Under the pieces are notes generated by a model. The model was not told where the DNA came from. It saw only the letters and a list, made by a program, of their open reading frames with translations, and searched no databases. A DNA stretch of 47,465 bases from Desulfuromonas sp. (lineage in GTDB: Bacteria > Desulfobacterota > Desulfuromonadia > Desulfuromonadales > Desulfuromonadaceae), in assembly GCA_021162745.1 (NCBI GenBank), contig JAGGYC010000073.1:1-47465 (forward strand), in the 5' to 3' direction. The translations under genes and the position numbers were made by a program. Within the stretch, counting starts at the first letter, position 1, and each line of letters starts with the position of its first letter. Below, in pieces: positions 12,777-21,888 of the stretch.

Positions 12777-14168
12777 TTACTTGGCGTTACCTGAACGATA
12801 CGTGGTTGGTTTTGCTTTCTTGTCGAGACTGATCGTCTCTTCCCACTCTTTCCACAGTACAGCGCCGGACATGGTGCCGAACGGCTTGTACCAGAGTTCA
12901 ACGGTGACGTCCATTTCACGCTCTTCAGCAACTTGCTTGCCATCGTCTCCCTTTTCAGTGACAGGGAAGAATATGTCGAAACGCTCTTCAACTTCTTTGC
13001 CTGGAGCCAGGCCGGTATCTTCGACAATCGAACTCTTCTCGTAGGGACCACGACCCATGTTGTTACCACGTGCCATCAACTTGGGTGTAGGCATGTAGAT
13101 AATTTCTTCTTCAAACAACTCATCGTCTTCTTCAGTTTCCGCTTTTACCGACAGAACCAGTCGGTTAGGAGTCGGTCAGCCATCGGGGATGGAGTGGCCG
13201 CTGCGGTTCACCATTTTAACTTTGACGACGGCCTTGGGCTTGAGTGTGCTGCCGTCGAGCCATTGAGAAACATAGCCTTCAACCTTGAAGTCGACAGCCA
13301 TCTTTTGCATGGTTTCATCGCTGTAGCTGAGGATTTTGTGGCCGAGACCACTCTTTTCCATGTGGCATTCCTGACATGTTTCCATGCCGCCTTCAGCCTT
13401 GTATGCCCACATGTAGCTGCCGTATGCTGTTGCACACTGGGTGGGATTTTCCAGCTCAAGGTTGGGGCCCATGCCGTGACACTGACCGCAGAAGATCGAT
13501 TCGTCCATGATATAGCTGCGCTTCATCTTGTCGAAGGTGTCGTCTTCGTGCTCACCGTCATTGAAACCGTAAACGGTATCATGTTGCGGATAACCATCGG
13601 TCCACTTGTGGGTGATCGCCATGCGGTTGTGGCAGACCAGGCAGTTGATGTTCAGGCTGGTCAGGGTTTTTTGGTGCTTGTCACGAATTTTAACCGCTTT
13701 TTTGTTGTCGGGATCCTTCATGGCTATCTTGGCATTGTCATACCATTCCATCAGAGTTTCTGCCAACTCAACAGCGACTTTGTCTTTTGCATCAGCCAAT
13801 TGCGGCAGGTGGCACTTCATGCAGCCCATCCAATGCTCAACTTTGATATCCTTGGTACTCTTGACGCCGGAGTATTCCCACGCCATAAAACCGTTTTTCA
13901 TGGCGGTGATCATGGTTGCCGCAGCGCGACCGGTGCCGTAGATAGAGCGGGCATGGGGAGATGCTGCCCAGTCGTCATGAACTTCCTCATGGCAATCAAT
14001 GCAGCCGGTCGAATCATACATCTCGATCAGCTCTTTCAAGCTATTGGCTTTGCCCTTTTTCGCCACGATGGTACCATCGCGGCCAACGCCGGCACCTATC
14101 GCGAACGCCATGGAGACGCTTAACCACAGGGCGATGACGGTAAGGCTGATAATTCGTATTATTTTCAT
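12777..14168 (-). CDS. extKL: Five-heme c-type cytochrome selenoprotein, ExtKL type (UGA at 13176-13178 read as selenocysteine)
   Basis: This is one 463-residue protein if the in-frame TGA (codon 331) is decoded as selenocysteine; otherwise it appears as two ORFs of 330 and 113 residues in the same frame. A signal peptide (cleavage near residue 23) exports it. Five CXXCH heme sites lie at residues 56-60, 116-120, 176-180, 227-231 and 265-269. The UGA interrupts a continuous segment, GHSIPDG-U-PTPNRLVLSV, and the downstream part has no start or ribosome-binding site at its head. A hairpin fitting a bacterial SECIS begins 10 bases after the UGA. The neighbours (DUF3373-like barrel, small periplasmic protein) match the Geobacter ext electron-conduit cluster, whose ExtKL cytochrome I recall is annotated as a (seleno)protein. 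Likely role: periplasmic electron carrier or oxyanion reductase. AGGAAA precedes ATG 14168. Confidence 0.85.
13147..13178 (-). promoter_or_regulatory. Bacterial SECIS element with its UGA(Sec) codon
   Basis: On the minus strand, UGA (13178-13176) is followed by 10 bases, then a perfect 6-bp stem ACCGAC (13165-13160) / GUCGGU (13152-13147) closing a 7-base loop UGGUUCU. A guanine in the first two or three loop positions, about 18 bases after the UGA, is the SelB-recognition pattern of bacterial SECIS elements. Confidence 0.8.
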
Positions 14169-14195: not shown

Positions 14196-14225
14196 GGAAG
14201 CCCCTGTCGTTTGACAGGGGCTTCC
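14196..14225. other. Perfect intercistronic hairpin between extJ and extKL
   Basis: A 13-bp perfect inverted repeat GGAAGCCCCTGTC-N4-GACAGGGGCTTCC lies in the 86-base gap. On the coding (minus) strand it is followed by only TTTCC, too weak for full termination, so it could be a partial attenuator or an mRNA-stabilising or processing element. Confidence 0.75.
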
Positions 14226-14520: not shown

Positions 14521-14562
14521 AAAAGCCGGGACGGCCCCCATGCGGGAACCGTCCCGGCTTTT
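14521..14562. terminator. Hairpin between extI and extJ (weak or partial terminator)
   Basis: A 14-bp perfect inverted repeat AAAAGCCGGGACGG-N14-CCGTCCCGGCTTTT. On the minus strand the stem ends in TTTTC, so some transcripts could stop after extI while others continue into extJ. Confidence 0.65.
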
Positions 14563-14586: not shown

Positions 14587-16401
14587 TTAGAACCAAGCTT
14601 CCATGGTCAAGTATACCTGATCCATCGAGTCGACGGGAGCAAAGAACTGAGCGTTGAGGGGATCCTCCAACTCGTCGATGTCCGCCGGAGCACCCAGCCA
14701 GTTGCCGCTGCCGGTGTACTCGTACTCGTAGTGCTGGTAGCCCAAGCGCATGAACGCTTTACACTTGTCGCTGAGCAGATCGCCGACAGGCATGTCCCAG
14801 AGCAGGTAGGCTTCGCCAACATGGCCGCGGGTGGCCAGCTTGGCCAGGGTCATGTCGTCATGACCGGGGGTCATGGAGATCCAGTTTTTGGTGCCGTAGT
14901 TGTACTCAAGACCAAGCTTCAGGCCGATGTCGTCCAGATCGTAACGAACGCCGGCATAGACGCTGTAGCCATCTTTCTGGCCTGGATTTCCCCACCAGGA
15001 ACCGAGCAGGGTGGAACCCATTTCGTCAACGCCATCAGGATCGGTGCGGCTCCAACCGGCGGAAACAAAGTAGTTGAGATCGGCAACTTTATCCAGATAG
15101 ACCATGGAGGTGTGGAAGATGTCGCCGAGGTTCTCGGTGTCGAGGGTGCCGTTGCTGATAGTGTGATCAGGGTCAATGGCGAGCTCAAGAGGGTTCGCGA
15201 ATGTTACGCCGTCAGGTACGTTGACAATGTTGACCGCCATGAACGACTGGATGTTCATGAAACGGGGGCCTTTGTTGATGATGTCCCAGCTGAAACCACC
15301 GAAATCCATGTCGTCAAGGTTGTCACCATTTTCGAGTGGACCGGCTTCAAACCCGCGACCGTAGCAGAAGCGGATTTTACTGTAGCCCATGAAGTCGAAT
15401 GGGTTGTCAAACACCATGCCCAATGAGGCACCGTCAAAGGCGTAGTCCATGTAGTTGACCGGGGTGGCCATCCGCTTGCCTGTGCCTTGACGTATGTGGG
15501 CAGGGGGACCGTCGGTGGTGGGGCGACGACCGATGGAGAACCAGATCGGTTGATCGGCAATATTGGTCCAGTTGATGTAGGCGCGATCAACACGCATGGT
15601 GCTGTCGGTCGGTTGACGGCTGCTGGCGCCATCCATTTCGTTAAAGCTGTTCATGAAGTAGGGGCCGTTGACGGTAGGGTTGGATGTCATACCCCAGGCC
15701 TTGTACATGGCCAGACGACCTTTGAACTCAAGGTTCTCAGCCGCTTTTACTTTCACGCCCAGGCGGAAACGGTTGGTGAACAGGCTGTCGTTCTTATAGT
15801 TGTTTTTTTCAGTCATGCTGTAGCCAATAGGGCCCATTGTAGAGGCCTTCCACGCGCCAATTGCAGCCATCATGGCATTTGGGTCTTGGGGGAAGCCTGC
15901 CATAGCTAATGCGTTAAAGTTTTCAATCATCATTTGGCGACTAGCAGCTGAATAAGATTGCATCATGCCAACAGCACCTTGAACCGCCGACGACATCATT
16001 GTGGTTTTGTCTTCAGTAGTTAAGGTTGGCATGGCGTTGAGTGCGTCAAGATCAAATCCACCGCCTTGAATCATCATTGCGGTTGCGTCTGCAATCTCAC
16101 CAGCACCCCAATACGCCTTGGTGTCGGCGTCGCTGAAGTCCAGGCGGGCACGGTAGTCGCCAGTGAACTCAAAGCGGCTGCTATTATCCCATTTTTCAGA
16201 GCTGCCTTCCAGCAGTTCAACAGAATCGGCGTTGTCGTCGGCTGCTTCTTGAACTTCATCCAGTTGCGATTGCAGGCTGCTCAGCTGTGAGGACAGCAGC
16301 TCAATCTGCTTTGCGAGGTCTGCTGTCGTGGGAGCTGCAAATGCGCCTGAGGGCAGGAGCATCATAGCGGCCAGGATCAGACCGACTGTTCTTTTTACCA
16401 T
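14587..16401 (-). CDS. extI: Porin-like outer-membrane beta-barrel, ExtI type (DUF3373-like)
   Basis: The 604-residue precursor starts with a signal peptide (MVKRTVGLILAAMMLLPSGAFA) and a short coiled coil (LAKQIELLSSQLSSLQSQL). The rest is a long series of amphipathic strands rich in aromatic and acidic residues, ending in the outer-membrane closing signature with a terminal aromatic (VYLTMEAWF). Features typical of the DUF3373 porin-like family include FEFTGDYRARLDFSDADT, NRFRLGVKVKAAENLEFKG and FSIGRRPTTDGPP. In Geobacter the equivalent barrel (ExtI) takes part in extracellular electron transfer and selenite/tellurite handling; I infer the same here from its position ahead of extJ and extKL. 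TGGAGG lies 8 bases before ATG. The rhodanese-like ExtH that precedes extI in Geobacter is absent here. Confidence 0.8.
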   Translation of the reverse strand: MVKRTVGLILAAMMLLPSGAFAAPTTADLAKQIELLSSQLSSLQSQLDEVQEAADDNADSVELLEGSSEKWDNSSRFEFTGDYRARLDFSDADTKAYWGAGEIADATAMMIQGGGFDLDALNAMPTLTTEDKTTMMSSAVQGAVGMMQSYSAASRQMMIENFNALAMAGFPQDPNAMMAAIGAWKASTMGPIGYSMTEKNNYKNDSLFTNRFRLGVKVKAAENLEFKGRLAMYKAWGMTSNPTVNGPYFMNSFNEMDGASSRQPTDSTMRVDRAYINWTNIADQPIWFSIGRRPTTDGPPAHIRQGTGKRMATPVNYMDYAFDGASLGMVFDNPFDFMGYSKIRFCYGRGFEAGPLENGDNLDDMDFGGFSWDIINKGPRFMNIQSFMAVNIVNVPDGVTFANPLELAIDPDHTISNGTLDTENLGDIFHTSMVYLDKVADLNYFVSAGWSRTDPDGVDEMGSTLLGSWWGNPGQKDGYSVYAGVRYDLDDIGLKLGLEYNYGTKNWISMTPGHDDMTLAKLATRGHVGEAYLLWDMPVGDLLSDKCKAFMRLGYQHYEYEYTGSGNWLGAPADIDELEDPLNAQFFAPVDSMDQVYLTMEAWF

Positions 16402-16461
16402 GTTGTTGCCTCCATAGTAGGTTTGTTTTAGGTGGAGCCGGTGCTCCGAAAATTTGTTGCG

Positions 16462-16478
16462 CAGCAGACCGTCTGCTG
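16462..16478. promoter_or_regulatory. 17-bp perfect palindrome in the extI leader
   Basis: CAGCAGAC-C-GTCTGCTG, 61 bases upstream of the extI start. Either a regulator operator or an RNA hairpin; nothing in the sequence names the regulator. Confidence 0.55.
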
Positions 16479-16488
16479 TGGCTTATGT

Positions 16489-16553
16489 CTATTGTTCATT
16501 GTCGCTGTGAGGTTCCGTGACAGGGGATCCTCACAGCGGCAAATTAACAATAG
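16489..16553. promoter_or_regulatory. Long inverted repeat in the extI leader
   Basis: Arms of about 24 bases (16489-16512 and 16529-16553) flank a 16-base loop. The inner CGCTGTGAGG/CCTCACAGCG and outer CTATTGTT/AACAATAG parts are perfect and the middle is imperfect. There is no T-run on the coding strand. It lies 88-152 bases upstream of extI and probably inside its mRNA leader, so it could be a structured regulatory RNA or a double operator. Confidence 0.6.
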
Positions 16554-16578
16554 GCTGATCATGATAACGGTTATTTTT

Positions 16579-16606
16579 AATATACGCATATCACGATGTG
16601 TGCCAG
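16579..16606 (-). promoter_or_regulatory. Candidate sigma-70 promoter of the ext operon
   Basis: On the minus strand: CTGGCA (16606-16601), 16-bp spacer, TATATT (16584-16579). It would give a leader of about 170 bases containing the two palindromes. The match is only moderate. Confidence 0.35.
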
Positions 16607-16753
16607 TTTTTGTAACGATCCGTTTTTGTGGAACTTCTTTGTTTTTTGTTGCGGGAAGGGAGGGTGGTTTTCAGAAATTCGCTGGCGATATAGCTGCTTG
16701 ACTCCGTAATATGACCAGTTTTTTCACTGCGTGAAGAGTGCGCTATAGCACAA

Positions 16754-16789
16754 ACTGAAAAAGGCGAGCTTGCGCTCGCCTTTTTCAGT
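16754..16789. terminator. Bidirectional intrinsic terminator after the glutamate synthase operon
   Basis: Stem ACTGAAAAAGGCGAGC-TTGC-GCTCGCCTTTTTCAGT with T/A tracts on both sides, 26 bases past the stop of the last glutamate synthase gene on the minus strand. Confidence 0.9.
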
Positions 16790-16814: not shown

Positions 16815-19139
16815 TTAAACGACCTGTTCCATGGTCCAGATACCGCAGGGGCAGATGCCGGAGCAGATGCCGCAGCCGATGCAGATATGGTCGTCGGAAA
16901 CGTACTCAAATGTACCATTCGGTCCTTCGACGCGCCGGATGGCGGCTTCGGGGCAGGCTTCGAGACACATGGAACAATCGCGACAGGTGCCGCAGGAGAT
17001 GCAGCGGGTGGTCTCTTCACGAGCATCGTGGAGTTTCAGTTGGCCACGATTGCGCGGCCGGAACAGCTCCATGCTCAGGCGGTGTTGTGGAATGGTTTCC
17101 AGTTTTTTCCGTTCGATGATTTCCAGACCGTTGAGCAGTGCATCGCAGTAGTCTGCCGCCTCATGGCCGTGGCCGATGGCGTTGGTTAACAGGCCGGGGC
17201 GGGTGGTATCACCGATGGCAAAGACGTTGTCGATGACATTCTCTTCGGCTTTCACCTGCCAGCAGCCGTTGACGTTCATCATGCCGCGGTCTGTCAGCCA
17301 GTCATGGGGAACGTAGGAGAGGTCGGGACGCTCACCGATGGAGATGATCACCATGTCGGCTTCGATCAATTCACCCTCCTTGGTGTGGAGACCTCTCACG
17401 CTGATGTGGTCGGTATGGATCGGCCAGCGGATCTCTCCACCCAGGGCTTCAACGTGATCGATCTCATTTTTGAATGCTGCCGGACGCTGAACGTCGATGG
17501 CGGTCACTTTTTTTGCTCCCATGGCATAGGCACCGAGGGCAACGTCCATGCCGGCATTACCGGCACCGATTACGACTACTTTTTTGCCGACGGTGGGTTT
17601 TTCACCGGCATTGATTTTTTTGAGGAAATCGAGCCCTTTAACCATCAGTTCGTGGCCGGGGAACGGAATGATCACGGGGTTGTGGGCACCGCTGGCGATG
17701 ATCACTGCTTCGTAATCGTTGCGAATCTGCTCAAACAGGGCACTGTCGACCTTGGTGTTGGTTTGGGTTTTGATCCCCGTATCAAGCATGCGCTGAATTT
17801 CGCTATCGAGAATTTCGCTGGGCAGGCGATCGGTGGGGATTGCTTGATAGAGCTTGCCGCCCAAACGGTTGTCCGCTTCATAGACCGTAACATCGTGGCC
17901 TTTGAGGCGCAGTTGCCAGGCTGCCGACAGGCCGCCGGGGCCGCCGCCGATGATGGCGATTTTTTTGCCGGTATCGGCAGCGCATGGTGGTGCCGGTGTG
18001 TTGACGGACAGCATACCCAGTTGTTTCATCGACACCGGAGTGTCGAGGAAGCGACGGCTGCAGGCGTCCATGCACAGGTTCGGGCACACTTGACCGCAGA
18101 CGCTGGCTGGGAACGGTGAGTAGCGCAGTACCAGCTCTAGCGCTTCTTTCTCTTTGCCTTCGCGCAACAGCTTCAGCCGATCCTGGGTGGGGATAAAAGA
18201 CGGGCAGGAGGATTGGCAGGGGGCGGCATAGCGTTTTTCCAACCAGTGTGGAATTTTCAGTCGATCATCACCGGTGTTAACCAGTCCGGCAACGTGGTTG
18301 TAGTCGTCATCGATGATATCGCCGAAGATCCCCCCCTCGACCCACTTGCCGAGACGGAATTCGTTGAGGGAGATTCGCCCCTTGGCGTTGCGTTCCTCGT
18401 AGGTTCTGGCAACGATCTTTTTCCACTGCCCCATGTCGCTGAGGGTGGCAAGCAGTTCAGGGCGCTCAATGCGTTCAAGAAACTCCGGCAGGCCGCCGGT
18501 GAGAAACTGTTGATCGGCCTCGTCGAGGTCGAGTAGCCAGACATCGTCAGACAGACCGGCCACTGGTCCGCGCACATAGAGGGTGCCGCTAACCATACCG
18601 GCGCAACCACGGTCGCCGAGAATGGAATCGAAGTTTTCGCAGTCGATGCCACAGATAACGCCGATACCGCCGCCCATGAATTCAAAGGAGAATGAGCCGG
18701 TTTTTTTCAATACCCACAGTTCCGGGGCGTCGAATGCCGGGTCATGCTTCATTAGTGAACCACTGCGGGTTCCCACCTGACCGGCGACAAAAATCTTGCC
18801 GCTGGCGGCGCAGTGAGCGGTGGTGTCGCCACTGTCGCCGAGGATGGTCAAAGTGGCACCGGAATTGAGCCAGCCGGCATCGGCCGGAGCCGAGCCGTCG
18901 ACGATGATGTCGGTCCCTTCGAGACCGAAGGAGCCGACACGTTGGCCGGGGTTCTTGACTCTGAACTTTAGCGGCGTGCCATCGGCCGTCCATAGTGGGC
19001 CGCCGATGTTGTGGTGACCCGAGGATAAAATCTCAAATTCGGTTTCACCGTTTTCGAGGGCGGTATAGATCTCTTGTAGCAATATTTGGGTGGAGATGCG
19101 CCGCTTGTCGGCGCCAAATCCATTAATTTCTGCAGCCAT
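16815..19139 (-). CDS. Glutamate synthase subunit: GXGXG domain fused to FAD/NAD(P)H oxidoreductase and two [4Fe-4S] clusters
   Basis: The 774-residue protein combines parts that are separate in ordinary bacterial glutamate synthase. Residues about 20-230 form the GXGXG beta-helix (VAGQVGTRSGSL, FMGGGIGVICGID), normally the C-terminus of GltB. Residues about 310-395 form the GltD-type cysteine-rich Fe-S helical domain (CQSSCPSF, CGQVCPNLCMDAC). Then come the FAD-binding IAIIGGGPGGLSAAWQLRLK and the nucleotide-binding VVVIGAGNAGMDVALGAYAM. Two ferredoxin-type clusters close the chain: CISCGTCRDC from residue 713 and CIGCGICSGIC from 753. It feeds reducing power to the FMN subunit encoded just upstream, 11 bases away, with which it should form the holoenzyme. 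AGGAGA precedes the ATG. Confidence 0.88.
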   Translation of the reverse strand: MAAEINGFGADKRRISTQILLQEIYTALENGETEFEILSSGHHNIGGPLWTADGTPLKFRVKNPGQRVGSFGLEGTDIIVDGSAPADAGWLNSGATLTILGDSGDTTAHCAASGKIFVAGQVGTRSGSLMKHDPAFDAPELWVLKKTGSFSFEFMGGGIGVICGIDCENFDSILGDRGCAGMVSGTLYVRGPVAGLSDDVWLLDLDEADQQFLTGGLPEFLERIERPELLATLSDMGQWKKIVARTYEERNAKGRISLNEFRLGKWVEGGIFGDIIDDDYNHVAGLVNTGDDRLKIPHWLEKRYAAPCQSSCPSFIPTQDRLKLLREGKEKEALELVLRYSPFPASVCGQVCPNLCMDACSRRFLDTPVSMKQLGMLSVNTPAPPCAADTGKKIAIIGGGPGGLSAAWQLRLKGHDVTVYEADNRLGGKLYQAIPTDRLPSEILDSEIQRMLDTGIKTQTNTKVDSALFEQIRNDYEAVIIASGAHNPVIIPFPGHELMVKGLDFLKKINAGEKPTVGKKVVVIGAGNAGMDVALGAYAMGAKKVTAIDVQRPAAFKNEIDHVEALGGEIRWPIHTDHISVRGLHTKEGELIEADMVIISIGERPDLSYVPHDWLTDRGMMNVNGCWQVKAEENVIDNVFAIGDTTRPGLLTNAIGHGHEAADYCDALLNGLEIIERKKLETIPQHRLSMELFRPRNRGQLKLHDAREETTRCISCGTCRDCSMCLEACPEAAIRRVEGPNGTFEYVSDDHICIGCGICSGICPCGIWTMEQVV

Positions 19140-19150
19140 TTATAGTCTCC

Positions 19151-20794
19151 TTAACACACGTACTGGACTTGTAAGCGGTCCGCTACGGATTTGTCCATGG
19201 CAACCAGAGCGTCAGAGCGACCAATCGGTAATGATGAGTTGCCGATCGGGGCCATCAGTTTCTTGAGTTCCTGATCCATAGCCAAAAAGTAGTTGACGAT
19301 GTTTTCCGCCACCTGTTCCGGATCAAGGCGGTGGGCCAAGGCCGGGTTCTGCGAGGTGATCCCTGCCGGGCACAGTCCGGTGTTGCAGGCATTACAGCGG
19401 CCCTGATCGTTACCGACGCAGCCGGCCATCTGTAGAATCAGCTTGCCGGTAAAGACGCCGTTGGCGCCGAGGCACATCATCTTGAAGGCATCGGCGGCGA
19501 GATCGCCGGTCTTGCCGAGGCCACCCGCCGCCCACAGTGGAATCTGACCCTGGCGGCCTTGAGTTACCGCTGCCAGGTAGCAGTCGCGCAGCTTGCTGAC
19601 GATGGGGTGGCCGGTGTGGTCGAGGGAGACCTCATGGGCCGCCGCCGTACCGCCATCAATGCCGTCGAGGAAGAAGCCGCCGACGATGTTGTACGGGTCG
19701 CGTACCAGGTTGTTGAATACCGAAACGCTGGTCGATGAAGCTGCAACCTTGATGGCGACAGGAACACGGAATTTAAAGGCCGCATTGAAGGAGAGGAACA
19801 TCTTCTGCACACTCTCCTCGATGGAGTATAGACCCTGATGGTTGGGTGGGCTGAGCAGGTCGGTCTTGGGCACACCGCGGATGGCCATGACGTGTTCAGC
19901 CACTTTCTGGGCCTGAAGCAGACCGCCGTCTCCGGGCTTGGCGCCCTGGCCGATCTTGATCAAAACCCCGGCCGGATCTTCAATCATCTCCGGCATCGCC
20001 TGGAGAATACGGTTCCAGCCGAAGTGGCCGGAGGCGATCTGCAGGATCATGTACTTGAGGTACTTGCTCTTGAGCAGCCGCATGGGTACGCCGCCTTCGC
20101 CGGAACACATCCGTACCGGCAGGCCGCACTCTTCGTTGAGATAGGCGACGGCCATGGCCACCCCTTCCCACATCCGCCACGACAGGGCACCGATGGACAT
20201 GTCGCCGATGATCACTGGATAGATTGAGTTGACGGGCGGCATATGGCCGTTGCTGACCAGCTTGCCGTTGCTGCCCAATGTCATGGGCAGTTCGTCGGCG
20301 GGCAGGATGCGACCGAAGGGGGCCAGCATGTCAAAGGTGTGCCGTTGGGCATCGAGGCTGGGGTCGGTCATCTGTGAGATGCGACCGACACGCAGCTGGT
20401 CCAGGGTGCGGATGCTGCCGGTCAGGTTCTTGCGACCACCGCGCTTTATTGAGTCGCCACCACTGCAGCGGGTGACAATCGGATGGCGCGTGTCGGGGTT
20501 GCGTACCGGCGCAATGGCGTCATTGGGGCACACTTTTTCGCAGATGCCGCAGCCGCGGCAATAGTTCTTCAGCGAGTTGACCTGCTTGATCACCGGTACC
20601 GCTGAAAAACGGGCACGGGGGTCGGGGAGGTCGCCCTCGGAGAAGATCATCCGTCGGCGCTCGATTTTTGCTTCAATGGCGCGGAAGGAGCAGGCGGCAA
20701 CGCACGAGCCGCACAGGGTGCAGCGGTTGGCGTCGTAGCGCAATTTCCATGGCAGATCGTTGGGGGTTGTATCGTGTATTTTTACTGTTTCCAT
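19151..20794 (-). CDS. Glutamate synthase FMN-domain subunit with N-terminal ferredoxin domain
   Basis: This subunit reduces 2-iminoglutarate (from 2-oxoglutarate and ammonia) to glutamate at FMN. The 547 residues start with two [4Fe-4S] motifs (Cys25/28/31/35 and Cys79/82/85/89) and continue with the FMN-binding barrel of glutamate synthase: GGVPMRLLKSKYLKYMILQI, IKIGQGAKPGDGG, the PPNHQGLYSIEE loop and GGFFLDGIDGGTAAAHE. The [3Fe-4S] ligand region CVGNDQGRCNACNTGLCP starts at 459. This is the short, archaeal-type form, lacking the amidotransferase and GXGXG domains, which are encoded on either side. Its ATG overlaps the end of the amidotransferase gene by 13 bases; TGGAGG lies 7 bases before the start. 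Confidence 0.9.
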   Translation of the reverse strand: METVKIHDTTPNDLPWKLRYDANRCTLCGSCVAACSFRAIEAKIERRRMIFSEGDLPDPRARFSAVPVIKQVNSLKNYCRGCGICEKVCPNDAIAPVRNPDTRHPIVTRCSGGDSIKRGGRKNLTGSIRTLDQLRVGRISQMTDPSLDAQRHTFDMLAPFGRILPADELPMTLGSNGKLVSNGHMPPVNSIYPVIIGDMSIGALSWRMWEGVAMAVAYLNEECGLPVRMCSGEGGVPMRLLKSKYLKYMILQIASGHFGWNRILQAMPEMIEDPAGVLIKIGQGAKPGDGGLLQAQKVAEHVMAIRGVPKTDLLSPPNHQGLYSIEESVQKMFLSFNAAFKFRVPVAIKVAASSTSVSVFNNLVRDPYNIVGGFFLDGIDGGTAAAHEVSLDHTGHPIVSKLRDCYLAAVTQGRQGQIPLWAAGGLGKTGDLAADAFKMMCLGANGVFTGKLILQMAGCVGNDQGRCNACNTGLCPAGITSQNPALAHRLDPEQVAENIVNYFLAMDQELKKLMAPIGNSSLPIGRSDALVAMDKSVADRLQVQYVC

Positions 20795-21888
20795 CGTGCA
20801 ACCTCCAGTTCCTCATTGATCACGACAATTTCTCGTTCGTTGGGGTAAATATCGGTACTCCAGTCCCGTTCGGGCAAAATCTCATTGATGCCGCACACCT
20901 CAGAAGCGATAGCGATGGTGTCTTCAGTCTGGCCGATCACCACCGGGCGCAGTTTTTTGGCATCACAGCAGGTAAACATGGTGTTGTCCGGGAGGACGCC
21001 GATAATGGTGTTCGGGCCGTTGATTTCGAGGTGGGTCAGGGACTGGCGGATGGCGCGGAGTTGCTCTGCATTCTCGCGTTCATTCATTTCGTGGAACGGC
21101 AGTGGTGTGATCACATGCTTAAAATATTGCAGTGGCCATTTCAGTTGGCGATGGATGTAATGCAGACTGTAGAGGAAGCACTGTGAATCGGATTCGAAAC
21201 CGATATAGCCACGGTGCAGCTTGGCCTGCATCTCCTTGTTCTTCTGGTAGAAGGTGTTTTCGCCGTTGGCCAGGCCGGTGTAACCTTGCAGGAAGAACGG
21301 GTGGGCGGCATAGCGAACGATGTCGTAGTTGGTGTTTTGACGACATTGGGCGGTGATCACCTTGGCGGTGAAATTTTCGTCTGCTTCCCACAAATTGAAG
21401 AAGGTGCCGATATCGCGCGGATCACCAATTTCCTTGAGGGTGACGACATCCGGCCAGAATGAGTAGACAAAACCCTGCTCATCAGGCTCAAGAGCAGCGC
21501 GCATCTTCAGGCGCATGTCGAGAAGTAACTCCTCTTTCTCTTCCTGGGTGGCATTCTTGTAGCTCTTGGGGAACGAAAAGGTTTCGAACACGTAGTTGGG
21601 CATGGCAATGATGTCAAGATCATCACTGGGGTATGTTTCCGGCACCCATTGCAGAACGCGGCGGAACCCGGCATCGTGCAGAATATTCTCGGCAAGGTTC
21701 AGACCTTCATCGGTGCAGGCCATGGACAGGGTGGGCAGGTGTTTGTAACCTTCAAAAATTCCGCCCAGATCTTGCATGACCATGGCAAACCCCGAGTTGT
21801 CATGTCCCTTTTGCTGCGATTGCATCAGCAGTAGGGCCTTGCTCGGGTGTGTGTAGTTTTTGCTTTTGATTGCTCCTATACGACACAT
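20782..21888 (-). CDS. Glutamate synthase class II glutamine amidotransferase subunit
   Basis: This subunit hydrolyses glutamine to supply ammonia to the FMN subunit. The 368 residues begin MCRIGAI, so Cys2 is the N-terminal nucleophile exposed after Met removal, as in all class II (Ntn) amidotransferases. Other family landmarks are GHDNSGFAMV, the substrate-loop region ITAQCRQNTNYDIVRYAAHP and TGLANGENTF, and GFESDSQCFLYSLHYIHRQL. It is the first gene of the three-gene operon; GGAGG is 9 bases before ATG and the coding end overlaps the next gene. The split into three polypeptides mirrors the archaeal/thermophile arrangement. Confidence 0.9.
   Translation of the reverse strand: MCRIGAIKSKNYTHPSKALLLMQSQQKGHDNSGFAMVMQDLGGIFEGYKHLPTLSMACTDEGLNLAENILHDAGFRRVLQWVPETYPSDDLDIIAMPNYVFETFSFPKSYKNATQEEKEELLLDMRLKMRAALEPDEQGFVYSFWPDVVTLKEIGDPRDIGTFFNLWEADENFTAKVITAQCRQNTNYDIVRYAAHPFFLQGYTGLANGENTFYQKNKEMQAKLHRGYIGFESDSQCFLYSLHYIHRQLKWPLQYFKHVITPLPFHEMNERENAEQLRAIRQSLTHLEINGPNTIIGVLPDNTMFTCCDAKKLRPVVIGQTEDTIAIASEVCGINEILPERDWSTDIYPNEREIVVINEELEVARWKQ

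Follow-up and report, generated by a model that had tools for sequence, protein, structure and literature searches.

The stretch upstream of extI, on the minus strand of the window (the whole 47,465-nucleotide stretch of DNA that was analysed), is very probably a regulatory mRNA leader and not a chance palindrome. Judged by comparison with related genomes, this structured leader in front of extI is real, conserved, and lineage-restricted. We give roughly even odds to the reading that the leader RNA of the extI-extJ-extKL operon acts after transcription initiation, either through a trans-acting factor bound to the loops of its hairpins P1 and P2 or through packing of these loops.

The operon lies on the minus strand in the order extI-extJ-extKL, extI being the first gene:

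14587 to 16401, minus strand, extI, encoding a DUF3373 outer-membrane porin-like protein of 604 aa
14255 to 14488, minus strand, extJ-like gene for a small protein of 77 aa with a signal-peptide-like start, named from its position alone
12777 to 14168, minus strand, extKL, encoding a multiheme cytochrome selenoprotein, with an in-frame TGA at 13176-13178

The extI open reading frame matches the Pfam family PF11853 (DUF3373), which is the family of ExtI, with an E value of 5.9e-129 across its C-terminal two thirds. The NCBIfam model NF040886, named "multiheme c-type cytochrome (seleno)protein ExtKL," matches both halves of extKL, on either side of the TGA. Since the TGA (SGHSIPDG-U-PTPNR) and the sequence following it are kept in relatives, the TGA is read as a selenocysteine codon and the gene as unbroken; open reading frame callers will cut extKL in two at this position.

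The gap between extI and extJ holds a very stable intercistronic hairpin (14525-14558, minus strand) followed by TTTTC; hairpins of other sequence are found there in two relatives (L006 and L011), while most relatives have none. The next gap, which separates extJ from extKL, has a terminator-like hairpin, GGAAGCCCCTGTC-AAAC-GACAGGGGCTTCC (14196-14225, minus strand), some 30 nt ahead of where extKL begins. On the other side of the leader, just before the extI promoter region, a bidirectional-looking terminator at 16754-16789, with a 16-bp stem and A and T runs, probably ends an upstream glutamate-synthase-like operon. There, at 16815-21888 on the minus strand, glutamate-synthase-like domains are apparently split over three separate genes, the first (GXGXG plus oxidoreductase/ferredoxin) recognised by domain scan and the other two (FMN-binding and amidotransferase-like) read from the open reading frame list.

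The earlier note had described a 17-bp palindrome at 16462-16478 and a long inverted repeat at 16489-16553; both are present at exactly these positions, as neighbours 10 nt apart and not nested as it had called them. The palindrome, CAGCAGACCGTCTGCTG on the plus strand, consists of two 8-nt arms that match perfectly and a single base between them. About 0.7 perfect palindromes of this 8+1+8 type are expected by chance in 47 kb (47465/4^8) and two are observed, so the palindrome alone is unremarkable, and it is its context and conservation that make it notable. The inverted repeat is 65 nt long and imperfect and consists of two arm pairs, one within the other: inner arms of 18 nt (89%, 16499-16516 and 16525-16542) and outer arms of 12 nt (92%, 16489-16500 and 16542-16553). 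The 199-nt leader folds on the minus strand with -67.1 kcal/mol, compared with -39.0 +/- 4.2 kcal/mol for shuffled sequences (z of -6.7), and the P1 stretch ranks 37th in folding energy among 4739 minus-strand segments of 75 nt. A third hairpin, P3, which is absent from the earlier note, sits between the palindrome and the ribosome-binding site. The predicted elements of the leader are as follows:

16489 to 16553, minus strand, hairpin P1, the long inverted repeat, from an inverted-repeat search and folding
16517 to 16523, minus strand, apical loop of P1, CTGTCAC, found 109-122 nt before the ATG across the eight genus members that have it
16460 to 16480, minus strand, hairpin P2, 21 nt with the apical core GACGGTC, containing the 17-bp palindrome
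16433 to 16448, minus strand, hairpin P3, CGGAGC-ACCG-GCTCCA, from folding
16406 to 16413, minus strand, Shine-Dalgarno sequence GGAGGCAA, the same in all 12 upstream regions compared

The three hairpins leave the Shine-Dalgarno sequence unpaired by them, in an A/C-rich surrounding stretch, and its unpaired probability in free folding is 0.3-0.8 across species. The stems are stable, which might suggest a transcription terminator or attenuator, but in an intrinsic element of this kind a T-run comes after the stem on the coding strand, and the coding (minus) strand of the window carries none after P1, P2, or P3. The sequence thus contradicts this explanation, which we regard as highly improbable, and bears out the earlier judgement that P1 and P2 are not terminators.

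We compared 12 orthologous upstream regions from 12 related genomes of the family Desulfuromonadaceae; the 11 genomes other than that of the window encode ExtI proteins that are 67-76% identical. From far to near, the order upstream of extI is an activator-type element, the TGGCACACATTGTGWTAT block, P1 with its CTGTCAC loop, P2, P3, CACCACAAGGAGGCAAC, and the ATG. In L006 and L010 the leader is kept although the sequence further upstream differs, and its conservation is therefore not simply that of the neighbouring gene. Of 14 extI homologues that we inspected in other families of the order, none has the leader, and most directly follow a cytochrome-like gene. The earlier note had proposed comparing the regions upstream of extI homologues for conserved pairing and had counted a lack of conservation in close relatives as half of a case against its reading. 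In the comparison, the relatives carry covarying pairs in P2 and in P2 and P3 together, supporting a structured leader RNA between the promoter-like block and extI, and the leader is conserved among them.

The candidate start signals for the transcription of the leader lie upstream of P1:

16586 to 16605, minus strand, promoter-like block TGGCACACATCGTGATATGC, with a sigma-54-like -24 box and atypical at -12
16684 to 16716, minus strand, direct-repeat-like halves GGTCATATTACG ... GCTATATCGCC, a candidate activator (enhancer) site
16579 to 16584, minus strand, TATATT, an alternative sigma-70 -10-like sequence with 9/12 in a consensus scan

The promoter-like block lies upstream of the palindrome, the inverted repeat, and extI, where the earlier note had placed a candidate promoter, and the block is conserved in 12/12 regions, as is its TGGCAC. 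The block matches 9-11 of 13 sigma-54 consensus bases, with A or T in place of the -12 C in all 12. The pattern that marks sigma-54 promoters, GG at -24 and GC at -12 ten bases apart, is thus incomplete here, the GG and the following G being present. Since none of the 12 regions has the -12 C, we do not claim membership and describe the block as resembling a sigma-54 promoter in the way it would work. In most of the 12 regions, TGGCAC is preceded by the halves of the upstream element at distances of about 106-107 and 85-87 nt (with a 12-nt shift in L003 and no clear halves in L013); the upstream activator site of a sigma-54 promoter is expected at about 80-150 nt. A strict form of the element occurs only at extI in four of the five genus genomes searched, and the copy in the window diverges from it. 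Most relatives have TATATT too, but L006 and L011 have lost it and in L013 it is altered. The promoter is better described as sigma-54-like, accompanied by an activator-type site upstream, than as a weak sigma-70 match. An activator-dependent promoter of the sigma-54 type would start transcription near 16572-16580, giving the extI-extJ-extKL mRNA a 5' untranslated leader of roughly 170-180 nt. With either sigma factor the start would fall about 20-30 nt before P1, so P1, P2, and P3 would all be transcribed; for both palindromes this is also probable because the upstream promoter-like block is so strongly conserved (12/12).

Hairpin P2 is present in 10 of the 12 upstream regions. Its ten orthologues align without gaps. 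Pairing is kept in 93% of the alignment cells, and 6/9 pairs have changes on both sides, a covariation that no shuffle out of 500 equals; in controls with slid partners, 17-58% pair. G-U pairs occur at three positions, and the apical core GAYGGUC is kept in nine of the ten. For P3, changes on both sides are found in 2/6 pairs. The compensatory changes expected of a structured leader RNA are found in P2 and in P2 and P3 together, and the comparison shows that the two are kept as predicted base-paired hairpins through paired mutations.

The earlier note had suggested a regulator binding site at the 17-bp palindrome, which would be an operator on the DNA, within the transcribed leader, for a regulator that binds as a dimer. 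The near-perfect symmetry and the core CAGAYGGTCTG, shared by every one of the eight genus members in alignment A3, point in this direction. We consider it a doubtful reading. The arms vary on both sides while pairing, including G-U pairs, is kept, and in 5/10 members the centre (TGG in four, AGA in L013) is not symmetric as DNA. The inferred start would be about 95-110 nt upstream of the palindrome. The palindrome is found in one copy per genome, always at extI and with no regulon, whereas an operator has a conserved symmetric half-site, usually in several places. Other palindrome matches carry mismatches and have a frequency close to the control level. At the thresholds used, the palindrome, the promoter block (a single match in its own genome), and the upstream element were each found only at extI, giving no sign of a regulon. 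The pattern of changes favours P2 being an RNA-type helix over the operator, bearing in mind that paired changes can also occur in DNA operators.

For P1, the conserved part is the loop: CTGTCAC is identical in all eight genus members that have extI and the leader (L002 and L004-L010). The flanks form a hairpin better than shuffled flanks do, with single-species p values of 0.002-0.085 and a Fisher p of 1.6e-7 over nine sequences, in which the failing L011 is included and relatedness is uncorrected. The stems are too different to align between L002, L006, L007, L010, and the L004 group, and covariation was not significant in the four alignable species. CUGUCAC is mostly unpaired in free folding of L002, L004, L006, L007, and L010 and is unpaired with a probability of only 0.21-0.46 in L005, L008, and L009. 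L011 and the family members from other genera lack P1 or have a different one, and the P1 of the window is very long, which is seen in no other genome compared. By this comparison P1 is shown to be kept as a putative hairpin presenting a CUGUCAC loop, with weaker support than P2.

Three stable hairpins before an open, A/C-rich ribosome-binding region, with a P1 stem that drifts in sequence while the hairpin stays, would also suit a stabiliser of the ompA type, in which the hairpins do no more than shield the mRNA 5' end or set the spacing of the ribosome-binding site and have no specific sensing partner. A plain stabiliser would not need the CUGUCAC and GAYGGUC loops, which are kept as the stems drift, and we take this explanation to be possible though unlikely.

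RNAalifold proposed that UUGUC pairs over a long range with GGCAA at the ribosome-binding site; we do not claim this pairing, since it is conserved in sequence only and shows no compensatory change. GGA loops of the CsrA type, read from the alignment, are carried by too few members, and a leader peptide was discarded by inspection, the ATG-started frames differing between species.

From P2, P3, and the ribosome-binding site we built a covariance model, with which 136 genomes of the order were searched. Scores higher than 70 bits came only from the extI loci of eight genus members; three other genomes in the family (G011, G004, and G013) reached 23-31 bits, likewise at extI. No convincing homologue of the leader was found away from extI in these 136 genomes. 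The best off-target match, on contig 80 of G054 (L088, 6321-6395), has 30.8 bits and an E value of 1.5e-5 for one genome. This locus, in a genome from another family, has a different cytochrome gene preceded by a near-canonical sigma-54 box, TTGGCACATGATATGC, and by two hairpins in the leader ahead of AGGAGG; the P2 loop is missing, and we rejected it as a homologue and regard it as a similar arrangement only. A repeat element was discarded as well, the 299-nt leader being present once in the genome, and no plasmid match to the leader was found.

A structured leader with conserved unpaired loops ahead of a respiratory gene raises the question of a small-molecule riboswitch of an undescribed class, the more so as cGAMP (GEMM-type) riboswitches are known for extracellular-respiration genes of Geobacter. 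Up to an E value of 10, the leader hairpins have no meaningful match to a GEMM or other Rfam covariance model, one chance miRNA model aside; the miRNA and sRNA models that match at chance level hit the upstream terminator in nearly every case. An aptamer would be expected to have more conserved unpaired sequence, and no expression platform, such as a terminator or a masked ribosome-binding site, is evident. A riboswitch therefore seems quite improbable.

With a TGA-containing cytochrome in the operon, P2 could also be imagined as a SelB/SECIS-like element through which the operon would be expressed according to selenium supply, extKL being a selenoprotein, and its core GGUCUG recalls the SECIS loop of Escherichia coli fdhF. 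A bacterial SECIS is a hairpin soon after an in-frame UGA with the loop of its own species, and P2 sits in the untranslated leader. The strictly conserved sequence after the extKL TGA can itself fold into an ACCGAC-UGGUUCU-GUCGGU hairpin at the SECIS position, whose loop is unlike P2. We give this explanation hardly any weight.

In the reading of a post-initiation leader RNA, a protein or RNA acting in trans would most likely bind the conserved loops of P1 and P2, or else the two loops would pack together, and either event would set the stability or translation of the respiratory mRNA. The leader would work after transcription initiation and not as a terminator. Simple masking of the ribosome-binding site is not predicted, since P1 to P3 leave it unmasked, which favours stability control or a bound factor. 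CUGUC of P1 and GAYGG of P2 are complementary if G-U is allowed and co-occur in the species having them; a pairing of the two loops has no covariation support. We suggest only very tentatively that they meet in a loop-loop contact or together provide a two-site docking surface, in a lineage-specific regulatory RNA class controlling a selenoprotein-containing extracellular-respiration operon.

GEMM riboswitches are the main known case of extracellular-electron-transfer operons being controlled at the RNA level, and a conserved non-Rfam leader before a porin and selenoprotein-cytochrome operon would, if true, be a second kind of such control. The element is compact and testable, with a 21-nt covarying hairpin, a 7-nt loop, a 12-genome alignment, and complete genomes among the relatives. 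The GEMM-type (c-di-GMP or cGAMP) leaders of Geobacter resemble the extI leader in being structured and in preceding extracellular-respiration genes in related bacteria, whereas the extI leader matches no Rfam model and has no terminator-type expression platform. Structured 5' leaders of the ompA type, protective or regulatory, are known on mRNAs of bacterial outer-membrane proteins. They share with the extI leader the stable hairpins near the 5' end, the open ribosome-binding site, and the outer-membrane protein gene; the extI leader differs in its conserved loop motifs and probable sigma-54-type promoter, and has no known homology to them.

In Geobacter sulfurreducens, the porin-like outer-membrane protein ExtI is implicated in selenite and tellurite reduction and belongs to the extHIJKLMNOPQS cluster (PMC5877670). 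The gene order there is the same, with extI, a small gene in the extJ position, and the selenoprotein gene extKL, but here extI comes first in a separate operon and has a promoter-like block and a leader to itself. The G. sulfurreducens sigma-54 consensus is TTGGCACGGTTTTTGCT, and primer-extended promoters of this species score in the same range, 9-11 of 13 (PMC2725144). The block upstream of extI shares their -24 box TGGCAC and falls within the reported range, whereas the -12 C is missing from it in all 12 regions.
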